NCBI RefSeq assembly: GCF_900112175.1
Contig: NZ_FOYT01000001.1
Location: 1,550,001-1,614,000, forward strand
Direction: 5' to 3'
Length of the DNA: 64,000 nt
Source of the DNA: Halogeometricum rufum
Lineage (GTDB): Archaea > Halobacteriota > Halobacteria > Halobacteriales > Haloferacaceae
The translations under genes were made by a program, and so were the position numbers. Each line of letters opens with the position of its first letter. Positions within the stretch are counted from its first letter, which is position 1. The notes beneath the pieces are model-generated. The model worked only from the letters and a program-made list of their open reading frames with translations. It had not been told where the DNA came from and did no database searches. Positions 1-11,311 of this stretch are shown here, piece by piece.

Positions 1-152
1 AGGTCGCCGTTCTCGGTCGAGACGGTCGCCTCCTCGGCCGCGACGACGCCCGCGCACGCCGACGCGACGAGGAGCATCGCCGCGACGACGCTGAGTCCGA
101 CCGCGACCCGCCGGCCCGCGCCCGTCGCCGTCTGAGTCCGCTCTCGGGTCAT
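1..152 (-). CDS. Secreted or membrane-anchored protein, truncated at the window edge
   Basis: The first 50 codons are visible; the rest lies left of base 1. The protein starts MTRERTQTAT, followed by a twin-Arg-like basic stretch (GAGRR) and a hydrophobic run (VAVGLSVVAAMLLVASACAGVV) ending near AAEE, a clear signal peptide or N-terminal membrane segment. The ATG sits one base after the TAA of the tubulin-like gene at 154 (TAACATG), so the two are almost certainly co-transcribed and translationally linked. Function cannot be judged from this fragment. Its place in the tubulin-like cluster suggests an envelope-side partner. Confidence 0.75.
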   Translation of the reverse strand, partial: MTRERTQTATGAGRRVAVGLSVVAAMLLVASACAGVVAAEEATVSTENGD

Positions 153-153
153 G

Positions 154-1350
154 TTACTCGTTGACCTTCATGTACTGCCGAAGGTTCTCTTCTATCGTGT
201 CGAGTTCCCCCTTCGGGATGCGTTCGTTTCCGAGACGACGCCCTGCAGCGAGGTTCTCCCGGTGGCTCTCGTACTGGTCCCACGCGTGGTCGACGAGCGG
301 GTTCAGGTCGAAGCCGCCGAGCAACAGGAGGACGTCGACGCCGTTCCCCGTCGCCCGTTTCGGGGTGAGCGTCTCCATGCCGACGGTGCCGGTGAGCCCG
401 TGCTTTCGCTTCCAGGAGTCGAACGCCTGCTTCACGTCGTTCGTCGTGAGTTCGTCCCCGACGAGGTGCTCCGGTGCGCGGACGATGGCGTAGGCGGCCC
501 GGCACGTCTCGACGTCCATCGGAACGTACGTCGCCTCGGACGCTCTGTCGAACATGTGTTCGAGCGACCGAATCTGGTAGTTCTCGTCGGTGGTGACGGC
601 GGGCGTGAAGTGGTAGCCGCTGATGTTCGAGGGCTGGGCGACGTAGTCCTCCACGTCGATGACGCGTTGGGTCTCCCGACCGGCGCTGATGAGCAGGTCG
701 ACCGCCTCCACGATTCGCTCGTTCACCAGTTCGTACTCGCCGCTCCCGCCGACGGTGTCGTCGCCCTCGATGTGGGAGTTCGCCGCCAAGAGCACCATGT
801 CCGCGTTCTGTGAGTTGTCCTCCCGACAGAGGAGCCGAGAGAGCCCGCAGACGGCGTTGAACTGCTGCTGTATCGCCTCGTTGTAGTACGGCCAGATACC
901 GAACGTGATGTGGACGCCGTCGCGCATCCACGCTCGCTGGTCGTCGATGTCGGTCGGGTCGCCGAACTGGTTGACGAGGTACGGAATGGACCCGTTCCCC
1001 GTCCCGCCGCCGAGCGTCGTCAGGTAGAGGAAGGCGTCGGCGTTGCCGGCGTCGTTCTCTATCTGGCTGACGATGTCGTCGATGTCCTCCTGAGCGCACT
1101 GCCGCCCGTCGACGAACGAGTTGCCGACGCCGCGCTTGGAGCCGAACATGACCGCCTTCTCCGCCAGCGTCTCGGGCACGTTCGACCCCTCGATGGTGTT
1201 ACGGATGTCCGCGCGGTTCGTGTTCAGCAGTATCATCCGGTCGTCGATGCCGGGGTTCTCGGTCCGCGCGAAGAAGTCGGCCGTCACGCGGCCGCCGCCC
1301 TCGCCGGACGAGACGACGGCCCACCGGGTGAAGGTGTCTGAGCGGGACAT
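154..1350 (-). CDS. Divergent tubulin/FtsZ-like protein (paralogue A)
   Basis: A 398-residue protein with the tubulin-superfamily signature GGGTGNGS at residues 114-121, the phosphate-binding T4 loop, preceded by a hydrophobic strand (AFLYLTT). The N-terminal nucleotide loop is unusual: SSGEGGGRVT at 14-23 replaces the GxGGxGxN form. The region at the usual base-binding Asn is LLAANSHIE, and the later acidic stretch IDVEDYVAQ may take the place of the catalytic T7 loop. It is not canonical FtsZ1, FtsZ2 or CetZ; remembered relatives are annotated as tubulin-like (Pfam Tubulin_2 type), which is an inference. The start ATG overlaps the TAA of the upstream coiled-coil gene (TAATG), indicating coupling. 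It may be polymer-forming, or an inactive partner subunit. Confidence 0.88.
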   Translation of the reverse strand: MSRSDTFTRWAVVSSGEGGGRVTADFFARTENPGIDDRMILLNTNRADIRNTIEGSNVPETLAEKAVMFGSKRGVGNSFVDGRQCAQEDIDDIVSQIENDAGNADAFLYLTTLGGGTGNGSIPYLVNQFGDPTDIDDQRAWMRDGVHITFGIWPYYNEAIQQQFNAVCGLSRLLCREDNSQNADMVLLAANSHIEGDDTVGGSGEYELVNERIVEAVDLLISAGRETQRVIDVEDYVAQPSNISGYHFTPAVTTDENYQIRSLEHMFDRASEATYVPMDVETCRAAYAIVRAPEHLVGDELTTNDVKQAFDSWKRKHGLTGTVGMETLTPKRATGNGVDVLLLLGGFDLNPLVDHAWDQYESHRENLAAGRRLGNERIPKGELDTIEENLRQYMKVNE

Positions 1351-3446
1351 TACTGCTTCGTCACCTCCGATTGTCCGACCGTGAACGAGGCGTCCACGTT
1401 CGTCTGGACGCCGGTCACGAGTTCCTCGAGGAGTTGGTCGGAGGCCGGTACGGTCAGGTATCGTTCACGCATCGTATCGTAGGACATCGAATCGCCGCTT
1501 GAGAGGTTGTGTGTCAGGATGTTCTCCAGCCGGTTCGTCAGTCTGGACTCGTCGAAGACGAGGACGTCACCGCCGTCGAGACACGCCCGCCCGTCGGACT
1601 GTTCGCCCCACATGGCGAGCAGGCACGGGACGAAGTCGTCCCTGATCGGGAACGACATCGACGGGTCGACGTAGCCGTCCTCGTCCAGTTTCCGGTCGAG
1701 TTCGGGGGCCAACTCCGGCAGTTCGTCGTGCAGTGCGGACTGCTGACCGTCGCAGACTCGCTCTGCCAGCGACGCCTCCGAGACGGTCAGCTCTACGGTC
1801 GTATCGTCGTCGAGATAGACGGTCGTCGACTCGGCGACGTAGCCCTCAGCCGGCGTGTCCGCCGTCACGTCGTACTCGCCGTACGGCACGGATTCGAACG
1901 CGACCTGTCCGACGAGGTGCGTCCGCGTGGACGACTCCTCGGCGTAGTTCGCCCCGTCGACTTCGACGCGGAGTTCCCGCTCGTCGCCGCCCGTCTCGAA
2001 CCGGGGCCGCACGTCGAGCGCGTATCGCTCGCCGGCACCGCCCGTCGTCAATCGCTCGTCGGACGGTGCGTAACTCGCGTCGGGGTGCTGTGCGGCGAAC
2101 AGTTCGAAGAACGGCCCGGCGTCTCGAACCGGGACGTCCGCCGGCGTGACCTCGCCGTTCGCCCGAAGCGCGTCGGCTATCTCGTCTTCCACGCCGGGGT
2201 ACGCCTCGACGACGGCCGCGTCCCGTTCGGTGGTGTCGAGTCCGGTCGAGAGGTCACCGACCGTCGAGAGCCACGCTCGGCGGAACGCTTCGAGGTTCGT
2301 CGTCGAGTCGAGTCGGGTCACGTGGTCGGTCCCGGCGGCGTCGGGAATCGTGGTGAACGACGGCGGCGCGTCCGAGAGCGTCTCGACGTCGTCGGCCAGT
2401 TCCGTCTGCATCTCCTCGACCATCGCGGTACAGGTCTCCTGAAGCGTACTCGCGTGCGATTCGAGGACGTCGACGTCGAGGGCGGAATCGACCTGTTCGA
2501 CCTCCCGCCTGACCGACTCCACCTCGTCGAGCAACGACGGCGAGACGTACTGGTCGGCCACGGACGACTCGACCGTGTCCAGGAGGGCCTCGACCGACCG
2601 ACGGTCGGCGTCGAACTCATCGGCGAGTTCCGACTCCACGCGACCGAGTGCGCGGACGGTGGCGTCGACCGCCCGTCCGTAGTCACCGGACTGCGCGGCG
2701 CCCTCGGCCTCGGTGAGGTCGTCGGCGACGACCGTGCGGTCGAGTCCGCGTTCCTCGGCGAGGCGTTCGACCTCGGCTCGCGCCTCGTCGAGGGCCGCCC
2801 GGGCGGTCCGGTCGTACGTCTGCAGTAACTCGTCGTAGCGTTCGGGAGCGTCGGCCTCGGATACCGATTCGAGTTCGCCGGCGTCGGGCGTCCGCACCGA
2901 CGACTCCGATACCAAGTCCCGTTCGACGAGAGGGGTGAGCGCGTCGGCGCTGGCGAGTCGGTCGCGCGCGAACGACTCGAACGACTCGTCTCGAACCGTC
3001 GCCAGCACCTCGACGTCGTCTTCGAGAGCGTTCAGTTCCCGCACGTCGCCGGTGCCACCGGTCGTGTACTGGCCGGCTTCGCGGTCGAACTCGATTCCGT
3101 TCTTCTCCGCGTTCCGCAGCAGTTGCGAGAAGTCGTTCTCCGTCGTTCGGGCCTCCCACTCGGGGTAGCGCTCCCGCAACCGGTCGTACGTCTTCCAGAA
3201 CGACCGAATCGACTCCGCGACGCCGTTGGCCCGCTGCCGGGCGAAGTCCGCCTGGTCGACCTGCGAGGGCCGGACCTGTCGTTGCACGTAGACGGCGACG
3301 GCGGAGATGGCCACCACGGGCGCACCGCCGAAGATGAAGTAGACGCCGAGTTGTGACCCCGTGTAGAGGAAGAGACCCAGCCCCACCACGACCGTTCCGA
3401 CCACGAGTCCACCGATACCGAGCGCTGTCTTGTACTGTGATTTCAT
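1350..3446 (-). CDS. Two-pass membrane protein with long coiled coil and Ig-like domain, tubulin-like cluster
   Basis: A 698-residue protein. Two N-terminal membrane segments (about residues 9-28 and 33-54) are followed by a long acidic, Ala/Glu/Arg-rich helical region (about 60-400) likely to form coiled coils. A beta-rich stretch at about 485-555 (LRVEVDG, VAFESVPYGEYDVTAD, VYLDDDTTVELTV) resembles a carboxypeptidase-regulatory/Ig-like domain, and a helical C-terminal domain follows. A longer reading frame continues upstream, but the start at MKSQYKTALG is chosen because a good ribosome-binding site (GGAGGTG) precedes it and its ATG overlaps the upstream TGA (ATGA). The short loop between the segments puts both termini on the same side, probably the cytoplasm. 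A role as membrane anchor or regulator of the adjacent tubulin-like protein is inferred from context. No family recognised. Confidence 0.85.
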   Translation of the reverse strand: MKSQYKTALGIGGLVVGTVVVGLGLFLYTGSQLGVYFIFGGAPVVAISAVAVYVQRQVRPSQVDQADFARQRANGVAESIRSFWKTYDRLRERYPEWEARTTENDFSQLLRNAEKNGIEFDREAGQYTTGGTGDVRELNALEDDVEVLATVRDESFESFARDRLASADALTPLVERDLVSESSVRTPDAGELESVSEADAPERYDELLQTYDRTARAALDEARAEVERLAEERGLDRTVVADDLTEAEGAAQSGDYGRAVDATVRALGRVESELADEFDADRRSVEALLDTVESSVADQYVSPSLLDEVESVRREVEQVDSALDVDVLESHASTLQETCTAMVEEMQTELADDVETLSDAPPSFTTIPDAAGTDHVTRLDSTTNLEAFRRAWLSTVGDLSTGLDTTERDAAVVEAYPGVEDEIADALRANGEVTPADVPVRDAGPFFELFAAQHPDASYAPSDERLTTGGAGERYALDVRPRFETGGDERELRVEVDGANYAEESSTRTHLVGQVAFESVPYGEYDVTADTPAEGYVAESTTVYLDDDTTVELTVSEASLAERVCDGQQSALHDELPELAPELDRKLDEDGYVDPSMSFPIRDDFVPCLLAMWGEQSDGRACLDGGDVLVFDESRLTNRLENILTHNLSSGDSMSYDTMRERYLTVPASDQLLEELVTGVQTNVDASFTVGQSEVTKQ

Positions 3447-4501
3447 AAGAACACCTCCACGAACGCGTCGAGCCACCCCGACACCGCCAGTCCGACGACG
3501 GTCGCGACGACGAGGGACGCACCGACGCCGACCGGGACCGCCAGTTGTCGGACGCTGTACTTCGATGTCGCGGTCAGCTGTTTGTCGTACGCGACCTTCT
3601 CCAGTTCGCGATTCGCCAGCCTGTAGCCGACGCCGCCGCCGAAGACCAGCCCCCCGACGACACCGCCGAGGAGCGACAGCAGAATCCCCGTCCGCGCACC
3701 GCTCAGTCGACCGCGCAGTTCCCCGCGGTACGCCTCGAGGGCGCTCCGGGAGGCGTCGAGTCGCTCGGACTGCCCCCGATTCACGGCGACGAGGAGTTCG
3801 GCGGCGTCGTCGTCCCCGCCGACCCCAGCTTCGAACACCGCCGCCTCCAGGGCGCGGTGACGCTCCACGAGCGGCGACGACTCGAACGCGTCTAACGCCC
3901 CGGCGTGCACCGGCTCGAACGAGTCGGTTCCGAGCGCCTCGGTCGCCCCCCGAACCGCCGTCGTCGCGTTCGACAACCGATCCGCACTCTCGACGTACCG
4001 CGCTTCGGCGGTGCGATACCGCTCGGCCGCGGACTCCGAGGGGAACGTGAGCGTCCGCGTGTCGTCGCCGACCCGCGTCCGGACGCCGGTACCGTCGGCG
4101 ACGGTGTAGCGCGGACCGTCCGCCTCTTTCTCCGGCACCGCCTTCGCGAGCGACACCGTGCCGTTCGCCTCCGTCACGCGCACCCGGGCGGAGTACCGGT
4201 CCGTCTCGACCGTCTCGAACCCGGACGTCGACTCGTCCAGCGTCCACGCCGTCTCGCGGAGTTCCGCCGCGCCGTCGCTGCAGACGAAGACGGCGAACTC
4301 CGTCCCCACGTACAACTGCTGGGCCGACTGGAGCCTCGTTCCGTCCGAGAAGGCGGCGACGACGCGCGTGTCCTGCACGTCCCGACACGCCGTCTCGGGG
4401 GCGACCGACGCGTCCGCGGCGGCGGCCGTCGCGGTCACCGACCCCACGGCGAGGACGAGGACGACTGCGAGAACCGCGGCCGGCCGAACGTCGACCGACA
4501 T
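3443..4501 (-). CDS. Exported protein with C-terminal membrane segments, tubulin-like cluster
   Basis: A 352-residue protein. Residues 1-29 form a signal peptide (hydrophobic AAVLAVVLVLAVGSVTATAAAA). An extracellular domain with Cys39 and Cys74, which could pair, follows. After a helical stretch (about 150-270) come two membrane segments, about 274-296 (rich in Gly) and 322-346. The predicted topology places the first 270 residues outside the cell and the short loop between segments (ANRELEKVAYDKQLT) inside. It overlaps its neighbours by a few bases on both sides (TGATG upstream, ATGA downstream), the pattern of an obligate operon member. Probably an envelope-facing component of the tubulin-like system. 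No family recognised. Confidence 0.83.
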   Translation of the reverse strand: MSVDVRPAAVLAVVLVLAVGSVTATAAAADASVAPETACRDVQDTRVVAAFSDGTRLQSAQQLYVGTEFAVFVCSDGAAELRETAWTLDESTSGFETVETDRYSARVRVTEANGTVSLAKAVPEKEADGPRYTVADGTGVRTRVGDDTRTLTFPSESAAERYRTAEARYVESADRLSNATTAVRGATEALGTDSFEPVHAGALDAFESSPLVERHRALEAAVFEAGVGGDDDAAELLVAVNRGQSERLDASRSALEAYRGELRGRLSGARTGILLSLLGGVVGGLVFGGGVGYRLANRELEKVAYDKQLTATSKYSVRQLAVPVGVGASLVVATVVGLAVSGWLDAFVEVFL

Positions 4502-4764
4502 CAGCCTCTCACCCGCCGGACGTACGCCCCGGCCGCGCCGGTGCAGAGACCGAGGCCGAGGCCGACTCCGAGGCCCGTGACGACGGGTCGAAGCGGCTTC
4601 GATTCGAGTCCCCGCGCCGCGACGACGGTCTGTTGGAGTCCCCGGACGCTCTCGGCGAGTTCGGCCATCGACGCCGGGTCGCCCGCCGCGGTCGAAGGCC
4701 CCGAGAGGGCGACGACGAGGGCGGTCCCGCCGAGCAACGCGCCCAGAACAGCGAGGCGTCTCAC
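4501..4764 (-). CDS. Small membrane protein (87 aa), tubulin-like cluster
   Basis: A GTG start at 4764 overlaps the TGA of the upstream tubulin-like gene (GTGA), with GGAGG about nine bases before it. The 87-residue product has an N-terminal hydrophobic segment (LAVLGALLGGTALVVALSG), a short helical linker (MAELAESVRGLQQTVVAARG) and a second Gly-rich segment near the C-terminus (VVTGLGVGLGLGLCTGAAGA), ending in RRVRG. Its stop overlaps the ATG of the next gene (TGATG). The frame stays open far upstream, but that part lies over the tubulin-like gene and is a shadow. Likely an accessory membrane subunit; no family recognised. Confidence 0.72.
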   Translation of the reverse strand: MRRLAVLGALLGGTALVVALSGPSTAAGDPASMAELAESVRGLQQTVVAARGLESKPLRPVVTGLGVGLGLGLCTGAAGAYVRRVRG

Positions 4765-5951
4765 GCGGCGACCTCCTCTCGGGGCGTCTCGTCGTGTTCC
4801 GCCGCGTGTTCCTCGATAGCGTCCAGTCGTTCGAGGTCGGAGCGGTCGTACGTTAGGAGCGTCGTGAATGACGCGAGATTCCGTTCGGTGAACGTCATCC
4901 CGTAGTTGACCTCCCCGCAGAACGACTTGAGTTGGCGGTCGACCGCCGAGACGTTGATTCGGTAGTCGTCGCCGGAGACGTACGACGCCGGAGCGCGAAC
5001 CGAGCCCAACGCCTTCTGCGCGCGAGTGGGGTCCGCGTCCGCGAGCGTCTGTTTGCTGACCGACTGGTGGAGCAGGTTCACGCCGTCGACGGCTCGCTTG
5101 CCGACGAACGGGAGCAGATAGCCGGCGAGCGACCGGGTCATCGTCACGGCGCGGCCGATGGTCGCGTACCCCGTCCGCTCGCCGTCGCTTCCGAGGCGGA
5201 GCGTCGTCACGATGTCTTTCATGTCGACCACCTGCGCGTCGACGTCGTCGTACGTGCTGGGGTCGATCCGTTCCAGCACCGGCCCGGAGACGAGATCGAC
5301 GATGGCGGACGCGACGTACTCGTTGTACTCCGAGAACCGACTCTCGGCGGCGTCCTGATACGCCAGTCGCTCGTTGTCGACGAGGACGATACCCTCGACG
5401 TGGTCCTCCAGACGGTCGAGTCCGTACAGCGCGTTCCACGCCTGCCGCGGCGCCGACACCTGTTCGTCCCCCTCAGAGACCGGGCCGGTCGTGTTCGGCA
5501 AGACGCCGACGGCGATGACGTCCACGTCGGACTCGGTGGACTCGCGGATGGACTCGACGAGGTGCGGGGCGATTCCGCACCCCGTCCCGCCCCCGAGTCC
5601 GAGGAAGACGAACACGTACGAGAACGGTTCGTCCTGCGCTTGCAGGACGGTCCGTATCTCGCGCGTCACCTCGTCGCTCCGCTCTTCCATCACCGAGTCG
5701 GCGTCTTTCGGGTCGCGCCCGAACCCGCCCGTGACGCGCGATTCGAACCCGTCTGTCTCCCCACGAACGAGTCCGTCGGTCTCTGAGACGCCGAACCACG
5801 CCGAACGGTCCACGTTCGAGAGGTTCTGGAGGTCTCGGATCGTCGAATTGAACACTAAGGGCGTCGCCAGTCGAGAGATTCGTCGGTGACCGAACACGTC
5901 GTCGACGATTGCACTCCCCGCCTGTCCCGCCCCCACAAAGAGGTATGGCAT
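4761..5951 (-). CDS. Tubulin/FtsZ-like protein (paralogue B, CetZ-like N-terminus)
   Basis: A 396-residue protein with a well-kept GTP-binding set. GAGQAG at residues 7-12 followed by IVDDVF resembles the CetZ loop; GGGTGCG lies at 120-126; VDNERL at 191-196 is the base-contact region; DDVDAQVVDMKDI at 235-247 fits the T7 loop with its catalytic acidic residues. It lacks the overall spacing of the CetZ proteins I remember and sits in a cluster with two other divergent paralogues. Of the three it looks the most likely to hydrolyse GTP and polymerise. A TATA box at 5981-5990 would start the transcript within about 10 bases of the ATG, so this gene probably heads the second half of the cluster. 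Its stop overlaps the next start (GTGA). Confidence 0.9.
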   Translation of the reverse strand: MPYLFVGAGQAGSAIVDDVFGHRRISRLATPLVFNSTIRDLQNLSNVDRSAWFGVSETDGLVRGETDGFESRVTGGFGRDPKDADSVMEERSDEVTREIRTVLQAQDEPFSYVFVFLGLGGGTGCGIAPHLVESIRESTESDVDVIAVGVLPNTTGPVSEGDEQVSAPRQAWNALYGLDRLEDHVEGIVLVDNERLAYQDAAESRFSEYNEYVASAIVDLVSGPVLERIDPSTYDDVDAQVVDMKDIVTTLRLGSDGERTGYATIGRAVTMTRSLAGYLLPFVGKRAVDGVNLLHQSVSKQTLADADPTRAQKALGSVRAPASYVSGDDYRINVSAVDRQLKSFCGEVNYGMTFTERNLASFTTLLTYDRSDLERLDAIEEHAAEHDETPREEVAA

Positions 5952-5980
5952 AAGTCAACTACCGCGAACTACAGGGAATC

Positions 5981-5990
5981 TTATATAAAT
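5981..5990 (-). promoter_or_regulatory. TATA box for the downstream half of the tubulin-like cluster
   Basis: On the minus strand the sequence reads ATTTATATAA, a strong archaeal TATA element in an otherwise GC-rich region, centred about 34 bases before the ATG at 5951. The transcript would be leaderless or have a very short leader, as is common in haloarchaea. Confidence 0.7.
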
Positions 5991-6039
5991 AGATGTCGTA
6001 GTCTGTAGTATTCGCACCCGCTGACATGCAATTCAGTTG

Positions 6040-7461
6040 TCAGCCTCGCAGTCGGCGAAGCATCACGCTGTATTCGTTCTGTTCGTAGAGTTGCTCGACG
6101 TAGTCGAGCACCGTCGCACCCGCATCCGCGATTTCGCGCGCCCGAACGCTCTCACCGGCGTTTAGCGCCGTTTCAGCTTCCTGATGGAGCGAGTCCACGA
6201 GCGAGAGAAAGTGCAGCGGGATGCTGTGGTTGTAGTCGCTCGTCCCCGATATCCACCGGTCGCTCACCGACTGTCGGCGTTCGACGAGCGATTCGACGCG
6301 TTCGGCGGCGTCGCCCGTCCCCGCCGATGCCGACGCCGAAGACAGTGCTGGCAACAGGTGTCGGTCGTAGAACCGCAGTTCGTTCTGTACGGCGTACTGC
6401 GTCACCTGATTCGTCTCGGGTGCGCCGTCGAGCAGTCGGCGGAGTTCCGCGACGCGGTCCGTCAGCTTCGAGGCCACTTGACCGTCGTGTGCCGACGCCG
6501 CCGTCTCGACGCCGGCAGCGAGTTCATCGACGGCGTCGGGGTCTACCGACCCGACGAGGCCGCGGACCGTCTCGGCCTCGTCGATGGCCTCGACCGCTCG
6601 TTCGAGGACCGGTTCGGGGTCGTCGTCGTCGCCGGCGAACGCGTCGAGGAGCGTCCGCGCGAGTTCGCTCTGGGGTCGGCGGCGGCGGCGCACCGCCGTC
6701 GCGGCGTCCGCCGCGCCGTCGTCGGTCGGCGTCCCCCCGTCGGCGATGTCCGCGAGCGCCTGTTCGGGGTCGACTTCGGGGTCCGTCTCGCCCGTCGCGT
6801 CGGCGATGGCACGCTCCAGTTCCCGGCACCGTTCCTCAGCCTCGCGGGCCCGCCGGTCGGCCTCCACTACCCGTTCGCAGAGCCGGTCGACGCCCTCGAC
6901 GAGCGCCGCTTCGGGGGCGTCGCTCAGTCGCTTGCGCGCCATCTCGACGTCCGCCCCCGCCCCCTCGCCGACGTAGTCGAGTGCCGTTCCGACGGCGTGT
7001 GCCGCCTCGGCGTCGCGGAGGACCGTTTCGAGCGACTGTGCGGCGGCGTCGGCGTCGGCGCCCGAGGCGGCGAACGTATCGAGGAGACGCTGCGCGTCGG
7101 GGGAGGCCAGCGATCCCGCGTCGACGCGGGAGACGACGTCCGCGGACGTCGGAGCCGGCGCGCCGGCCGTCCGACCGGACCGGGTCGCGTCCTCGAACGA
7201 CAGCGTTCCGCGGTCCACCGCCTCCGCCAGCGCTTCGACCTTTTGGACCGGCCCATCGTCGGGACGGACGGTACCGGGTAACCGGTCGAGACTCGCGTCT
7301 GCGACGAGTCGGTCCGTCGCCTCCGAGAGGTGGTCGAGTTCCCTGAGCACGGCGTCCTCGCTCGCGGGGGCGTCCAGTCTGTCGGCGACGGCCGCTATCG
7401 ACGCGTCGTCGTCGCTGCCCCCGCCGAAGATGCCGAACACCAGCGGTAACGGCCCCGCCAT
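6040..7461 (-). CDS. Soluble helical/coiled-coil protein, tubulin-like cluster
   Basis: A 473-residue, Ala/Asp/Glu-rich and almost entirely helical protein with no membrane segment. Residues about 190-222 look like a coiled coil, residues 225-257 are a low-complexity acidic linker, and a five-Arg run lies at 258-262. The C-terminal third (from about 340) is more ordered, with aromatic positions (ELRFYDRHLLPAL, SIPLHFLSLVDSLHQEAE, DYVEQLYEQNEYSVMLRRL). The ATG follows the stop of the zinc-finger tubulin-like gene by one base (TAACATG). Probably a cytoplasmic adaptor or regulator of the tubulin-like proteins; this is inferred from position only. Confidence 0.83.
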   Translation of the reverse strand: MAGPLPLVFGIFGGGSDDDASIAAVADRLDAPASEDAVLRELDHLSEATDRLVADASLDRLPGTVRPDDGPVQKVEALAEAVDRGTLSFEDATRSGRTAGAPAPTSADVVSRVDAGSLASPDAQRLLDTFAASGADADAAAQSLETVLRDAEAAHAVGTALDYVGEGAGADVEMARKRLSDAPEAALVEGVDRLCERVVEADRRAREAEERCRELERAIADATGETDPEVDPEQALADIADGGTPTDDGAADAATAVRRRRRPQSELARTLLDAFAGDDDDPEPVLERAVEAIDEAETVRGLVGSVDPDAVDELAAGVETAASAHDGQVASKLTDRVAELRRLLDGAPETNQVTQYAVQNELRFYDRHLLPALSSASASAGTGDAAERVESLVERRQSVSDRWISGTSDYNHSIPLHFLSLVDSLHQEAETALNAGESVRAREIADAGATVLDYVEQLYEQNEYSVMLRRLRG

Positions 7462-7462
7462 G

Positions 7463-9079
7463 TTACGCCATGTTCTCCCGGCCGAGGCAGTCGAACAGCG
7501 ATTCGACGTGAGGCCACACCTCGCGGAGCGACTCGCCTTGTCTGCTGCCGCCTTCTTTGATGTCGCGGGCGTGTTCGTACATCGATTCGAGCGCCGGCAT
7601 CTCGGGGTTCCAGAGCGCGCCCCACAGGTAGACGTCGTCGAGGTACGGGACGGAGAGCTGATTGATCTGTACGTCCACCGTCTCGACGCTGTCGGTGTTC
7701 GCGCCGTCGAGGAACTCCTCGCGGTTGAGTATCTCCTGCATCGTTCCGTCGGTGACGTGCCGGCGGATGCGTTCCATCTTCGAGTCCGGCCCGTAGACGA
7801 GGAACTGCCCGCCCCACGCCGTCGACGGGTCGAAGTCCGCGAGTTTGTTCTGGAGGAGCGTGTTTCGCACGAGGAGGTCCAGCGACGACTCCGTCATCTC
7901 GCTGCCGCGGAGGCGGCCGAGGACCGGCGCGAGGACGACGGCCGGCGTCTCGTCCAGCGGGATGCTCGCCGGGTACTTGTCCTGAGCCGGACGGAAACTG
8001 TCGGACACGTCGAACACGTCGCCCTTCGCGCGGATGTCGTGTTCCTGACTCAGCAACTGCGGCGTGGAGGTTAGCGTGAACGCCTCGAGGTAGGCGACGA
8101 GCGGTCGGTTGAGGCTCGCGTACTGCGGCGGGTTGTACTTCGTCAGGTCGGCTATCTCGGGGTGGATGTCGCCCTCGGCCCGTTCCAGTCGGTCGTTGGT
8201 GAACGGTATCACCGCGTCGACCGCTTGCGAGAGGCGTGCGAGGCCGACGACGCCGTTCGTCTTCGGCCGACCGCCCTGTCGGGAGAGTTCGCTGCCCTGC
8301 GAGGGGAGGACGACCGAACTCAGGACGGGCTTTCCGACGATGGTGTCGTCGGGCAGGACGTGCTCCCGGAGTTTCTCCGCGAGGACGGGCGTCGACCCGC
8401 ACCCGGTTCCCTTCGTCACGCTGTGGACGAACATCACGGCCTGGGAGTCGCGAATCTCCTGCGGGCGGAGGTCCCAGCGGTCGCGGAACGCGTTCTTTTC
8501 GCCCTCGAAGTCGTACTCGACGACTTTCGCACCCGTGTCCCACCGGTACCCCATCCCGGTTCCGTCGTGGCCCCCCATTCCGATGAGCGTGTTCGACAGG
8601 AGGTCGTTCCGGACGTACTGTTTCACCTCGCTCGCGTAGTACGTCTGTTCGAGTTCGCTGATGTTGGTGTTCAACATCCCGTAGCCGGCGAGGCCGCCCT
8701 GCCAGATGTACGCCCGGTCGGCGTCGCGTTCGTCCAGCGTCCGTCGGCGGAGCAGTATCGCGTCCACGATGTTGTTCCCGGCGCCCCCGACACCGATGAC
8801 GTACCACTTCTTCCCGTAGGTCGTGTCCGCGAGGTCCGGCGCGGTCCGTTCGTCGGCCGTCTCGTCCGCTTCTTCGTCCGTCTGTGCCTCGTCGTCGTCA
8901 CCGCCCCCGACGTCGGCGTCGACGACGCCGTCGTCGTCGAACAGTCGGTCGTGCGCCTCGGCGTACACCGCTTTGACGGACATCGGGTCGTCCCGGTGTG
9001 CGTTCGCCAGGTGCTCGTCGAGCGTGTTTGTCTCCCACTCTGCGGCCGTCCGGTAGCATATCTTGCATCGTTCAGTCAT
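7463..9079 (-). CDS. Tubulin/FtsZ-like protein with N-terminal zinc finger (paralogue C)
   Basis: A 538-residue protein. Cys5, Cys8, His23 and His28 form a C2H2-type zinc finger (CKIC ... HLANAH), followed by an acidic linker (about 45-85). The tubulin-like domain starts at KKWYVIGVGGAGNN (GVGGAGNN at 96-103, the classical FtsZ-type loop). The T4 signature is TKGTGCGS at 222-229, with Lys at one of the usual Gly positions. FTNDRL at 293-298 resembles the FtsZ NDxL base-contact motif. A region FDVSDSFRPAQ may correspond to T7. A zinc finger fused to a tubulin fold is unusual and suggests binding to nucleic acid or another protein. The gene follows the membrane protein at 9120 by 40 bases and is coupled to the helical gene after it. 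Confidence 0.9.
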   Translation of the reverse strand: MTERCKICYRTAAEWETNTLDEHLANAHRDDPMSVKAVYAEAHDRLFDDDGVVDADVGGGDDDEAQTDEEADETADERTAPDLADTTYGKKWYVIGVGGAGNNIVDAILLRRRTLDERDADRAYIWQGGLAGYGMLNTNISELEQTYYASEVKQYVRNDLLSNTLIGMGGHDGTGMGYRWDTGAKVVEYDFEGEKNAFRDRWDLRPQEIRDSQAVMFVHSVTKGTGCGSTPVLAEKLREHVLPDDTIVGKPVLSSVVLPSQGSELSRQGGRPKTNGVVGLARLSQAVDAVIPFTNDRLERAEGDIHPEIADLTKYNPPQYASLNRPLVAYLEAFTLTSTPQLLSQEHDIRAKGDVFDVSDSFRPAQDKYPASIPLDETPAVVLAPVLGRLRGSEMTESSLDLLVRNTLLQNKLADFDPSTAWGGQFLVYGPDSKMERIRRHVTDGTMQEILNREEFLDGANTDSVETVDVQINQLSVPYLDDVYLWGALWNPEMPALESMYEHARDIKEGGSRQGESLREVWPHVESLFDCLGRENMA

Positions 9080-9119: not shown

Positions 9120-11018
9120 CTACGCGTACCGCTCCCGATACCGCTCTTCGAGCCCGTCTATCGCCTCGCGGACCGACAGCCCCGACTGCGGTTCGAATTC
9201 CAAGAACGCGGGCGGCGTCAGCGACTGGAGTTCGACGTGGGAGACGAGGTCCGACTGATGTTCGGCGTAGTCCCGCAGCGTCTTCAGCACCTCCGGACGC
9301 GCCACCGACGGCGGGAGGTCGTCGGTCTGGAACTGGAGGTGGTCGTCGCCGCTCGCCCGCGCGCAGCGGTCGAGTTCCCGGAACGCGTACAGCACCTCGT
9401 CGACCACCTGTTCCGGCCGTGCCTCGGTCGCCGTCTCGGCGAACTCACCGTCGCTCTCTGCGTTCGGTGACGCCGTTTCCGTCGGCGCGACGGCGTCGTC
9501 GGTCTCAACCTCGTCGGCGTCCGGGCCGTCCACGCCGTCGTCGTCCCCGCTCTCGCCGACGACGACGGCCGACTCGTCCGCGGTCACGTCCAGCGGTGCG
9601 CCGCGTTCGCGCCTGAACGCCTCAGAAATCTCGGCGACGAACGCGGTGGGGACGCTGTCGGGGAGCGACACGCGGCCGCCGGCCGACGTCGCCGAGAGCC
9701 CCCGGAGCAGTTCGCTCGCGGTCGTCAGGCGCTCTCCGTCCGCGGCGGCGGCCGACGCGAGACGCTCGGCGTCGTCGAACCGACACGCGTACAGCGACTG
9801 CCGGGCCTCGTCGGATCGCTCTCGGACGTCGGGCACGCCGGCGAGCGCATCGCTCCGACCGTCGAGGAGGAGTTCGGTCGCCCGGTCGCGGACGCGGCCA
9901 TCGAGACGGTCGAGTTGCCCCTCCAGCGTCTCCGTGGCCGTCTCGACGGCCCGGAGGTGCGTCAGCACCGCCTCCTCGCGCTCGGAGACGTGTTCCCGTA
10001 TCGAGTCGAGGCGGGCGTCGACCTCTCGAGTCGCCGCGGCGACGTCTTCGAGTCTGTCGCCGTCGCCGAGACGGCCGAGCAGCACCTCGGACGCTTCGCC
10101 AATGTGGACGGGGTGTGCCGTCCCGGACAGCGACAGTTCGCGGAACCGCGTCGGGAGGTTGACGACGGTGTAGGACCCGCCGTCGGCTGCCCGAACGTCG
10201 ACGTCACCGTAGGTCGTCCGTATCGCGGATTCGAGCCGTCGTCTCGCCGCCTCGTCCGCCGCCGTGACCGCCGACTCGGGGTCGAGTTCCGACAGTCGCT
10301 GCCGGACGCTCGACAGGTCCCGCTTCGCCGCCGCGGCCGACTCGGCGGATTGGACGCCGTGGAGGGCCGAGCGAACGTCGTCCCACCGAGCGTGGAACTC
10401 GTCGCGACGTTCGGTCGCCGCTTCCGCGGCCGACGGCGCGACCGAACGGATGGCGTCCGGGTCGCCGATGCGCTCTTCGAACAGGGTCTCGAACTGGTCG
10501 CGAACCCGCTCCAGTTCGGCTTCGCTCTCGCCCGCCTCCGCGCCGGCGGACTCCACGACGTCGAGTTCCCAGTCGCGGGCGACCGCCGCCGCGACGACCA
10601 GTCCCGACGTGACCACCGGTATCGAGAAGAACCCGACCAACTGGCCGGCCGGGAGGCCCGCGCCGAACAGTTCCGAGTAGACGCCGAAGAAGAGGACGAC
10701 GAACAACAGCGAGACGAACCCGGCGGCTGCGAAGGCGGCGTCCCGGTGGGGTCGGACCGCGATGGCGACTCCTTCGCCGACCCACCCGACGGTGATGAGT
10801 GCGAACAGTCCGACGACGAGCGCCGGACTGGCCTTGAACACCACCGCGGCCTCGTACAGCACCGCTACGTCGTACAACGGTCCGATGACGGCGACGAGAC
10901 CGGTCGACTGGGCGTTCTCTCCGAGAAGCGCGAGCAGCGATTGTCCGAGTATCATCACCAGCGGTAGTCCCGCAAGCCCCCACGAGGCGAGCGCACGTCC
11001 GGGTCGACGCGAGTTCAT
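9120..11018 (-). CDS. Polytopic membrane protein with long cytoplasmic coiled coil, tubulin-like cluster
   Basis: A 632-residue protein. About five membrane segments occupy residues 12-150 (for example 12-33, 66-88, 95-117, 124-147). The rest is a long hydrophilic region with coiled-coil character (about 155-480), an acidic low-complexity linker (about 510-555) and a compact C-terminal domain (VVDEVLYAFRELDRC to the end). The open frame extends to 11279, but the upstream part is poor coding sequence; the ATG at 11018 (MNSRRPG) lies about 45 bases after a TATA-like element. A GTG one codon earlier is an alternative. As first gene of the minus-strand run it probably tethers the system to the membrane. 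No family recognised. Confidence 0.82.
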   Translation of the reverse strand: MNSRRPGRALASWGLAGLPLVMILGQSLLALLGENAQSTGLVAVIGPLYDVAVLYEAAVVFKASPALVVGLFALITVGWVGEGVAIAVRPHRDAAFAAAGFVSLLFVVLFFGVYSELFGAGLPAGQLVGFFSIPVVTSGLVVAAAVARDWELDVVESAGAEAGESEAELERVRDQFETLFEERIGDPDAIRSVAPSAAEAATERRDEFHARWDDVRSALHGVQSAESAAAAKRDLSSVRQRLSELDPESAVTAADEAARRRLESAIRTTYGDVDVRAADGGSYTVVNLPTRFRELSLSGTAHPVHIGEASEVLLGRLGDGDRLEDVAAATREVDARLDSIREHVSEREEAVLTHLRAVETATETLEGQLDRLDGRVRDRATELLLDGRSDALAGVPDVRERSDEARQSLYACRFDDAERLASAAAADGERLTTASELLRGLSATSAGGRVSLPDSVPTAFVAEISEAFRRERGAPLDVTADESAVVVGESGDDDGVDGPDADEVETDDAVAPTETASPNAESDGEFAETATEARPEQVVDEVLYAFRELDRCARASGDDHLQFQTDDLPPSVARPEVLKTLRDYAEHQSDLVSHVELQSLTPPAFLEFEPQSGLSVREAIDGLEERYRERYA

Positions 11019-11063
11019 CACGCCCACCCAACACGTTGTCAGCCAAAACTCTTTCTCAAGCTG

Positions 11064-11069
11064 TATATT
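11064..11069 (-). promoter_or_regulatory. TATA-like element before the tubulin-like cluster
   Basis: AATATA on the minus strand within GAGAATATACAG, about 45 bases before the ATG at 11018, giving a leader of roughly 20 bases. It is the only AT-rich element just before the first gene of the cluster. Confidence 0.45.
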
Positions 11070-11311
11070 CTCCCAATCGTACCATTCGGCCGGACCGCTC
11101 GGGCGTCGTTCGACTTGTTCACCGACGGAGTCGATTCCGTGACAGGTCTCCCGTCGAAGCGGCCGTCTGAGGTCCGAGGCCGTGGCGGTCGTCTCTCGGG
11201 CGGCGGTCGTCGAGGGGCGAATCGAGCGAATCGTCGTCGCTCCGTCCGGGGGCGGCCTCCAAGCTTGCGGCGTGAGCAAACCATTTCACGAGGGGGCGCA
11301 ACTCCGGTAGT

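Follow-up and report, generated by a model that had tools for sequence, protein, structure and literature searches.

Three genes of the tubulin/FtsZ superfamily, here called paralogues A, B and C, are encoded on the minus strand of the window (the whole 64-kb stretch of Halogeometricum rufum DNA that was analysed), which raises the question of whether their products share the work of GTP binding and hydrolysis equally. The original prediction, attached to a span (154-1350) that corresponds to paralogue A alone, held that GTP-binding motifs had been lost unevenly among the three proteins, and that an active polymerising subunit might act with partners that only bind GTP, in the manner of alpha- and beta-tubulin.

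Family membership and gene neighbourhood

The Pfam family PF00091 (Tubulin) is found at seven loci in the host genome, three of them inside the window, and all three proteins pass its cut-off of 33 bits (A 37, B 55, C 52.6); it was also matched at E<=0.01 by 44 of 44 A family members and 26 of 26 B family members. None of the three reaches the cut-off of the FtsZ equivalog TIGR00065 (295.2 bits; A 16.9, B 41.1, C 42.6). Tubulin_2 (PF13809, cut-off 27 bits) gave no match to A or C and a score of 26.2 bits for B, with no locus of the host genome above the cut-off, and the tubulin C-terminal Pfam domain was not matched by any of the 44 A or 26 B members.

The nearest solved relatives by sequence are CetZ proteins (4b46 and 4b45 of Haloferax volcanii; 3zid of Methanosaeta), with 4b46 closest to A (2.8e-13) and 3zid closest to B (2.5e-11). 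An AlphaFold2 model of A, based on an alignment of 44 sequences, has the whole tubulin fold (pLDDT 89.4, pTM 0.91). The first Foldseek match to this model is CetZ1 (4b46, TM 0.72/0.85), and VIA-align puts OdinTubulin on top (Z 39.7, rmsd 2.6, 362 residues aligned), with bacterial and eukaryotic tubulins also in its top rows (Z 38-40 for OdinTubulin and BtubB); the 50 VIA-align matches listed are all tubulins, CetZ not being among them, and are no evidence that A is nearer to tubulin than to CetZ. The model of C, based on 18 sequences, has a pLDDT of 44.1 and a pTM of 0.32, and the C profile matches FtsZ, CetZ and B across the GTPase domain (hhalign). A, B and C fall outside the CetZ sequences as three separate groups (SH-aLRT 99) in a tree made by a quick search with few CetZ sequences, long-branch warnings and one wrongly picked open reading frame (L138, end branch 6.6), in which the branches joining A, B and C to one another are deep.

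The cluster order, read 5' to 3' on the minus strand, is P-C-D-B-E-F-G-A-H-I-J (Table 1). From B through H, neighbouring genes share 1-4 bases or have one base between them, and a gap of 88 bases separates D from B. A TATA-like AT-rich stretch (tatttatataag, window positions about 5970-5995, minus strand) lies inside this gap, looking as though B had a transcript start of its own. Gene H runs past the window edge (L008:10336-13152) and is followed outside the window by I and J. Signal or membrane helices are predicted in F, H, I and J, with CarboxypepD_reg in H and a weak Ig-like match in J. The start codon of gene P was chosen by us within a longer open reading frame.

A Pfam scan of the cluster proteins scanned matched no vWA and no kinase, and gene P matched EzrA with an E-value of only 0.062. 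Anti-phage defence was rejected as the main reading of the cluster because the nine cluster proteins scanned had no PADLOC match at E<=0.01, the only gene matched being an AAA+ ATPase gene beyond J. This gene (L008:2005-3714, plus strand; PF00004, 111 bits), located near the cluster in the host genome, matches the PADLOC models of IetA and TRIP13, and its profile matched only nine haloarchaeal stretches.

Table 1. Genes of the cluster and GTP-site loops of their tubulin-superfamily products, in window coordinates
Feature	Position	Strand	Basis
Gene H, 5' part only in window: signal peptide, TM, CarboxypepD_reg domains	1..152	-	Pfam, hydropathy
Paralogue A, tubulin-superfamily protein, 398 aa	154..1350	-	PF00091 37 bits; AF2 model
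A loop T7, IDVEDY, catalytic-type acid pair D232/D235	643..660	-	59/59
A loop T4, GGGTGNG	991..1011	-	LGGGTGNGS in 59/59
A loop T3 region, G-V/A-G-N signature	1105..1143	-	G[AVT]GN 59/59; then x[WFY] in 58/59
A loop T1, SSGEGGGR, present	1288..1311	-	Ungapped on CetZ GFGQAGGK; pattern 59/59
Gene G, membrane protein, two N-terminal TM helices and long soluble part, between B and A	1350..3446	-	Hydropathy; homologues
Gene F, predicted signal peptide and C-terminal TM helices	3443..4501	-	Sequence prediction, profile search
Gene E, 87 aa, predicted signal/TM, 4-base overlap with the end of B	4501..4764	-	Sequence prediction
Paralogue B, CetZ-like tubulin-superfamily protein, 396 aa	4761..5951	-	PF00091 55 bits; hhalign to CetZ
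B loop T7, VDMKDI (true position)	5211..5228	-	Aligned to CetZ VVDSSEI; 37/39
B loop T4, GGGTGCG	5574..5594	-	37/39
B loop T1, GAGQAG	5916..5933	-	37/39
Gene D, 473 aa, without Pfam family, partner of C	6040..7461	-	Pfam; beside P and C at loci without A/B
Paralogue C, zinc-finger-plus-tubulin-like protein, 538 aa	7463..9079	-	PF00091 52.6 bits
C loop T7, FDVSDS	7997..8014	-	VFD..DSFR 18/18
C loop T4, TKGTGCG (TK in place of GG)	8396..8416	-	18/18
C loop T1, GVGGAGN	8774..8794	-	18/18
C N-terminal C2H2-type zinc-finger-like motif (C5, C8, H23, H28)	8996..9067	-	Invariant in 24 and 18 aligned C proteins
Gene P, predicted multi-TM membrane protein with long soluble part, partner of C/D	9120..11171	-	Hydropathy

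GTP-site loops of the three proteins

The stretch SSGEGGGRVT of A, which the original prediction took for a replacement of a lost first loop, is loop T1 itself. In a profile-profile alignment (hhalign), A RWAVVSSGEGGGRVTADF falls on CetZ KLAMIGFGQAGGKIVDKF with zero gaps, the same stretch of the A profile also aligns to T1 of the H. volcanii structure 4b46 (HMMER), and the pattern [AS][SA]G[EQ]G[AG]x[RNK][IVM] is kept by 59 of 59 A homologues from several archaeal lineages. The sole change is that of the first loop glycine to serine or alanine; E or Q follows the first kept glycine. The string GGGTGNGS was correctly attributed to A, and every one of the 59 homologues has LGGGTGNGS. At T7, A reads VIDVED, and the ID..D of its homologues aligns to NVDFAD of Methanocaldococcus jannaschii FtsZ in an alignment obtained from HMMER alone, hhalign of A having ended before T7, and the D..D pair is kept in 59 of 59. 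The model of A places T7 at the beginning of the helix after H7 (helix 233-242), the position that it also has in FtsZ.

Paralogue B aligns to CetZ over 349 columns (hhalign probability 99.71) with T1, T4 and T7 all aligned. Its last loop, formerly read as DDVDAQVVD, is instead VVDMKDIVTTL, which pairs with VVDSSEIINTL of CetZ; GAGQAG and GGGTGCG are present as described, T1 and T4 each being kept in 37 of 39 B proteins. The two T4 exceptions are at L108, which is cut by the contig, and at the ANME-2 locus L092. The D..D pair of T7 is likewise kept in 37 of 39, and both exceptions (L084 and again L092) retain an acid at the position equivalent to tubulin residue 254 (D and E, respectively). 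Among the B genes of ANME-2 MAGs (L161:4496-5623, plus strand; L162:6575-7633, minus strand; L092:17287-18327, minus strand), a T4 glycine has been lost in L092 and L161, which read GGITG. Motif decay is real in ANME-2, yet it affects B, and A of ANME-2 keeps all loops.

Paralogue C has the intact first loop (GVGGAGNN; GVGGAGN in 18 of 18 C proteins) and the altered T4 (KGTGCGS) that had been ascribed to it. T4 reads SVTKGTGCG in all 18, such that the GG of GGGTGxG has become TK and the core GTGxG is retained, and two diverged relatives of C read SIENGTGTG and SIAKGTGTG; thus, the first two T4 glycines have been lost across the C family. The T7 sequence VFDVSD keeps its D..D pair in 18 of 18. 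C also joins its zinc-finger-like motif to the tubulin-like domain, a combination that we consider unusual.

The T6 asparagine and the asparagine of helix H7 are invariant in every family alignment (N191 and N210 of A, N193 and N210 of B, N295 and N324 of C). Judged by sequence, the GTP sites of A and B are intact and that of C is nearly so, with the altered T4 the sole family-wide departure from the GTP-site motifs. Every string quoted in support of uneven motif loss is present, but the loss itself was mostly a misreading, T4 of C alone being altered. This alteration suggests slower exchange or a structural role, and through it C might be an impaired subunit.

According to the available text of PMC13394414, one GTP interface is silent in alpha/beta-tubulin and in AtubAB: K254 in T7 of beta-tubulin stops hydrolysis of the GTP of alpha-tubulin, E254 of alpha-tubulin completes the active site of beta-tubulin, and AtubA carries the same kind of T7 lysine. 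The silencing lysine was found at the equivalent position in none of the families aligned (59 A, 39 B and 18 C proteins), where the residue is acidic in 59 of 59 A, 18 of 18 C and, by pattern, 37 of 39 B proteins. With an acidic T7 in all three, the motif pattern does not point to one active protein accompanied by others that only bind GTP.

Distribution of the A/B and P-C-D modules

Among 292 haloarchaeal genomes sampled at class level (thresholds of >300 bits for A and E 1e-30 for C), A and B occur in 28 each, with identical genome lists, and C occurs in 28, of which 26 are shared with A and B. C is missing from two of the A/B genomes (G042 and G048), and in two other genomes (G081 and G031) a diverged C is the only one of the three. 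At the 27 haloarchaeal loci compared (L041-L067), gene order is constant, with B, A, H, I and J at every one of the 27 and C and P at 25. A further locus, L068 (G048:C8), was left out of this comparison: its only match is a distant A-like gene (31% identity, 75 bits), which the genome has in addition to its A/B module. The diverged C genes of G081 and G031 adjoin P and D homologues, with no A or B (L164:7902-9587 and L165:7488-9269, both minus strand), and P-C-D is a free-standing system in these two haloarchaea. The existence of A/B genomes without C and of C/P/D loci without A or B thus distinguishes two modules, A/B and P-C-D, which are usually joined in haloarchaea.

Pairwise distances within the families are strongly correlated (Pearson 0.92 for A-B, 0.95 for A-C and 0.88 for B-C, with 0 of 1000 Mantel permutations as high) across 21 of the 26 genomes that combine A, B and C, five having been left out for wrong B or C starts. 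The A-C correlation being as high as that of A-B, these values indicate joint inheritance and not specific contact.

A scan of genome contigs with the A profile identified 58 loci, 36 of them non-haloarchaeal and belonging to ANME-2/Methanoperedens, Hydrothermarchaeota and other Euryarchaeota MAGs, Altiarchaeales, and one MAG labelled Micrarchaeota. B is present at 18 of the 36 and G at 17 (E-values 7e-80 to 3e-14), and A, B and G occur together at 17. G lies between B and A in 16 of these 17; at L124, G and A are adjacent and B is about 3.4 kb off on the other strand. Homologues of J and I are present at 13 of the 36 loci each, H at 11 and K at one. Profile searches of the 36 loci found no C, P, D, E or F, absences that carry little weight because many contigs stop near A; in Methanoperedens, a gene with F-like topology occupies the place of F, though the F profile matched haloarchaeal loci only. 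An Altarchaeum MAG encodes a full B with T4 and T7 intact on a different contig from A, and two ANME-2 MAGs encode a diverged B beside I and apart from A, with J too in one of the two stretches. C is most likely a later haloarchaeal addition, derived from the separate P-C-D module.

Possible action of A and B and comparison with known tubulins

There is, in our estimation, an even chance that A and B are obligate partner subunits of a membrane-tethered filament of the tubulin superfamily, with both GTP sites able to bind and hydrolyse, on the grounds of their exact co-occurrence, the B-G-A order, the kept T1, T4 and T7 loops (59 of 59 in A, 37 of 39 each in B), the fold of A and the tight packing of the genes. 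The two proteins would be produced from one tightly packed row (B-E-F-G-A-H-I-J) and would stack lengthwise, the acidic T7 (DxxD) of each entering the nucleotide pocket of its neighbour. G, with its two N-terminal membrane helices the best candidate for a tether by hydropathy, would be the membrane anchor of the filament, a transmembrane or external portion would be built from F, H, I and J, and filament turnover would lead to envelope or membrane remodelling or to secretion. We infer the A-B contact, the polymerisation, the tethering by G and the cellular task, and the putative role in remodelling or secretion derives from the company of neighbouring genes, as in the reasoning of Makarova and Koonin (2010) for FtsZl1 (PMC2875224, available text). 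Neither co-occurrence nor gene order demonstrates contact between A and B; B genes on contigs apart from A (Altarchaeum and ANME-2 MAGs) and the broken T4 of ANME-2 B (GGITG) count against the partnership. The divided roles of the original prediction survive in the form of specialised partner subunits, favoured by the occurrence of A and B in the same 28 of 292 genomes and by the B-G-A order, but not in the form of active and binding-only subunits, to which the acidic T7 of all three is opposed.

A and B might belong to the same membrane machine and still form separate homopolymers, or act as GTP switches at different sites, with no alternation. Each keeps its own T7 acid pair, as do the self-polymerising FtsZ and CetZ, the two belong to different clades, and the Altarchaeum and ANME-2 MAGs have the two genes on separate contigs; their co-occurrence in 28 of 28 genomes and the B-G-A order suit joint assembly better, and we regard separate polymers or switches as rather unlikely. 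It is improbable that A, B and C work without polymerising, as GTP-dependent scaffolds or switches, for although their divergence from FtsZ and CetZ is long and none reaches the FtsZ equivalog cut-off, the entire tubulin fold of A, like that of protofilament formers and CetZ, and the kept T7 acids are hard to account for without subunit contacts. The model in which B is active and A and C only bind GTP, in the style of alpha/beta-tubulin, draws on the loss of the first two T4 glycines in 18 of 18 C proteins, which may make C slower or inactive. It conflicts with the intact T1 of A (59 of 59), with the acidic residue of A, B and C where known silent interfaces have lysine (PMC13394414, available text), and with the presence of A and B without C in G042, G048 and all 17 non-haloarchaeal B-G-A loci, and is very improbable.

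The partnership of A and B may amount to an ancient two-tubulin system of Hydrothermarchaeota, Methanoperedens, Altiarchaeota and haloarchaea. A single membrane-bound filament would contain A and B in alternation, and GTP could be hydrolysed at both interfaces; the system would have arisen apart from eukaryotic alpha/beta-tubulin, BtubAB and AtubAB, and would drive an envelope-spanning machine of G, F, H, I and J. This fuller reading is tentative, and we lean against it. Like alpha/beta-tubulin, BtubAB and AtubAB, A and B are two distinct tubulin-fold proteins from nearby genes, but they have neither the silencing lysine nor a match to the tubulin C-terminal Pfam domain. Heteromeric tubulins are known in few lineages. 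If the partnership is real, an obligate archaeal pair with an acidic T7 in both subunits would test the need for one silenced interface in a two-subunit filament, and archaea outside Asgard would have an envelope-linked tubulin system that can be studied by gene deletion in culturable haloarchaea.

A and B also resemble FtsZl1 (Tubulin_2), an FtsZ-like protein of archaea and bacteria encoded in an operon with membrane proteins and predicted to act in membrane remodelling (Makarova and Koonin 2010, PMC2875224). FtsZl1, as described in the available text of that paper, has a long coiled coil, partners of the vWA, kinase and GTPase types and no recognisable T6-H7, whereas A and B are about 400 residues long, score below the PF13809 cut-off and belong to a cluster whose scanned proteins gave no vWA or kinase match. 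Halo.Tub, a group of tubulin-like proteins described from Halobacterota by Santana-Molina et al. (2023, PMC9871819), has multiple copies in quasi-tandem and coiled-coil neighbours; A, B or C may be among its members, a likeness drawn from the published description and not from sequences. The available text of that account contains no A/B pair, membrane-protein cluster or GTP-loop analysis, and no mention of Methanoperedens. Non-canonical archaeal members are also mentioned by Brown and Duggin (2023, PMC9856176, available text). Within the literature covered (mainly titles and abstracts, together with text of PMC10927574 and PMC5898192, with most subscription journals and all of bioRxiv outside its scope), there was no recognisable account of the A/B pair, of its G/H/I/J cluster, or of its presence in Methanoperedens or Hydrothermarchaeota.

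The likeness to CetZ extends to loop T1 of A and loops T1, T4 and T7 of B, which align with those of CetZ; A and B differ from CetZ in being encoded in a large membrane-protein cluster and in being always paired among the 292 genomes. CetZ relatives are also encoded elsewhere in the genomes concerned: a Hydrothermarchaeota MAG has three CetZ-like genes in a row (L163:5356-9575, minus strand), separate from its A and B, and the host genome has a 548-residue CetZ-related open frame (L004, G000:C1:920171-923665) that branches with the CetZ sequences.
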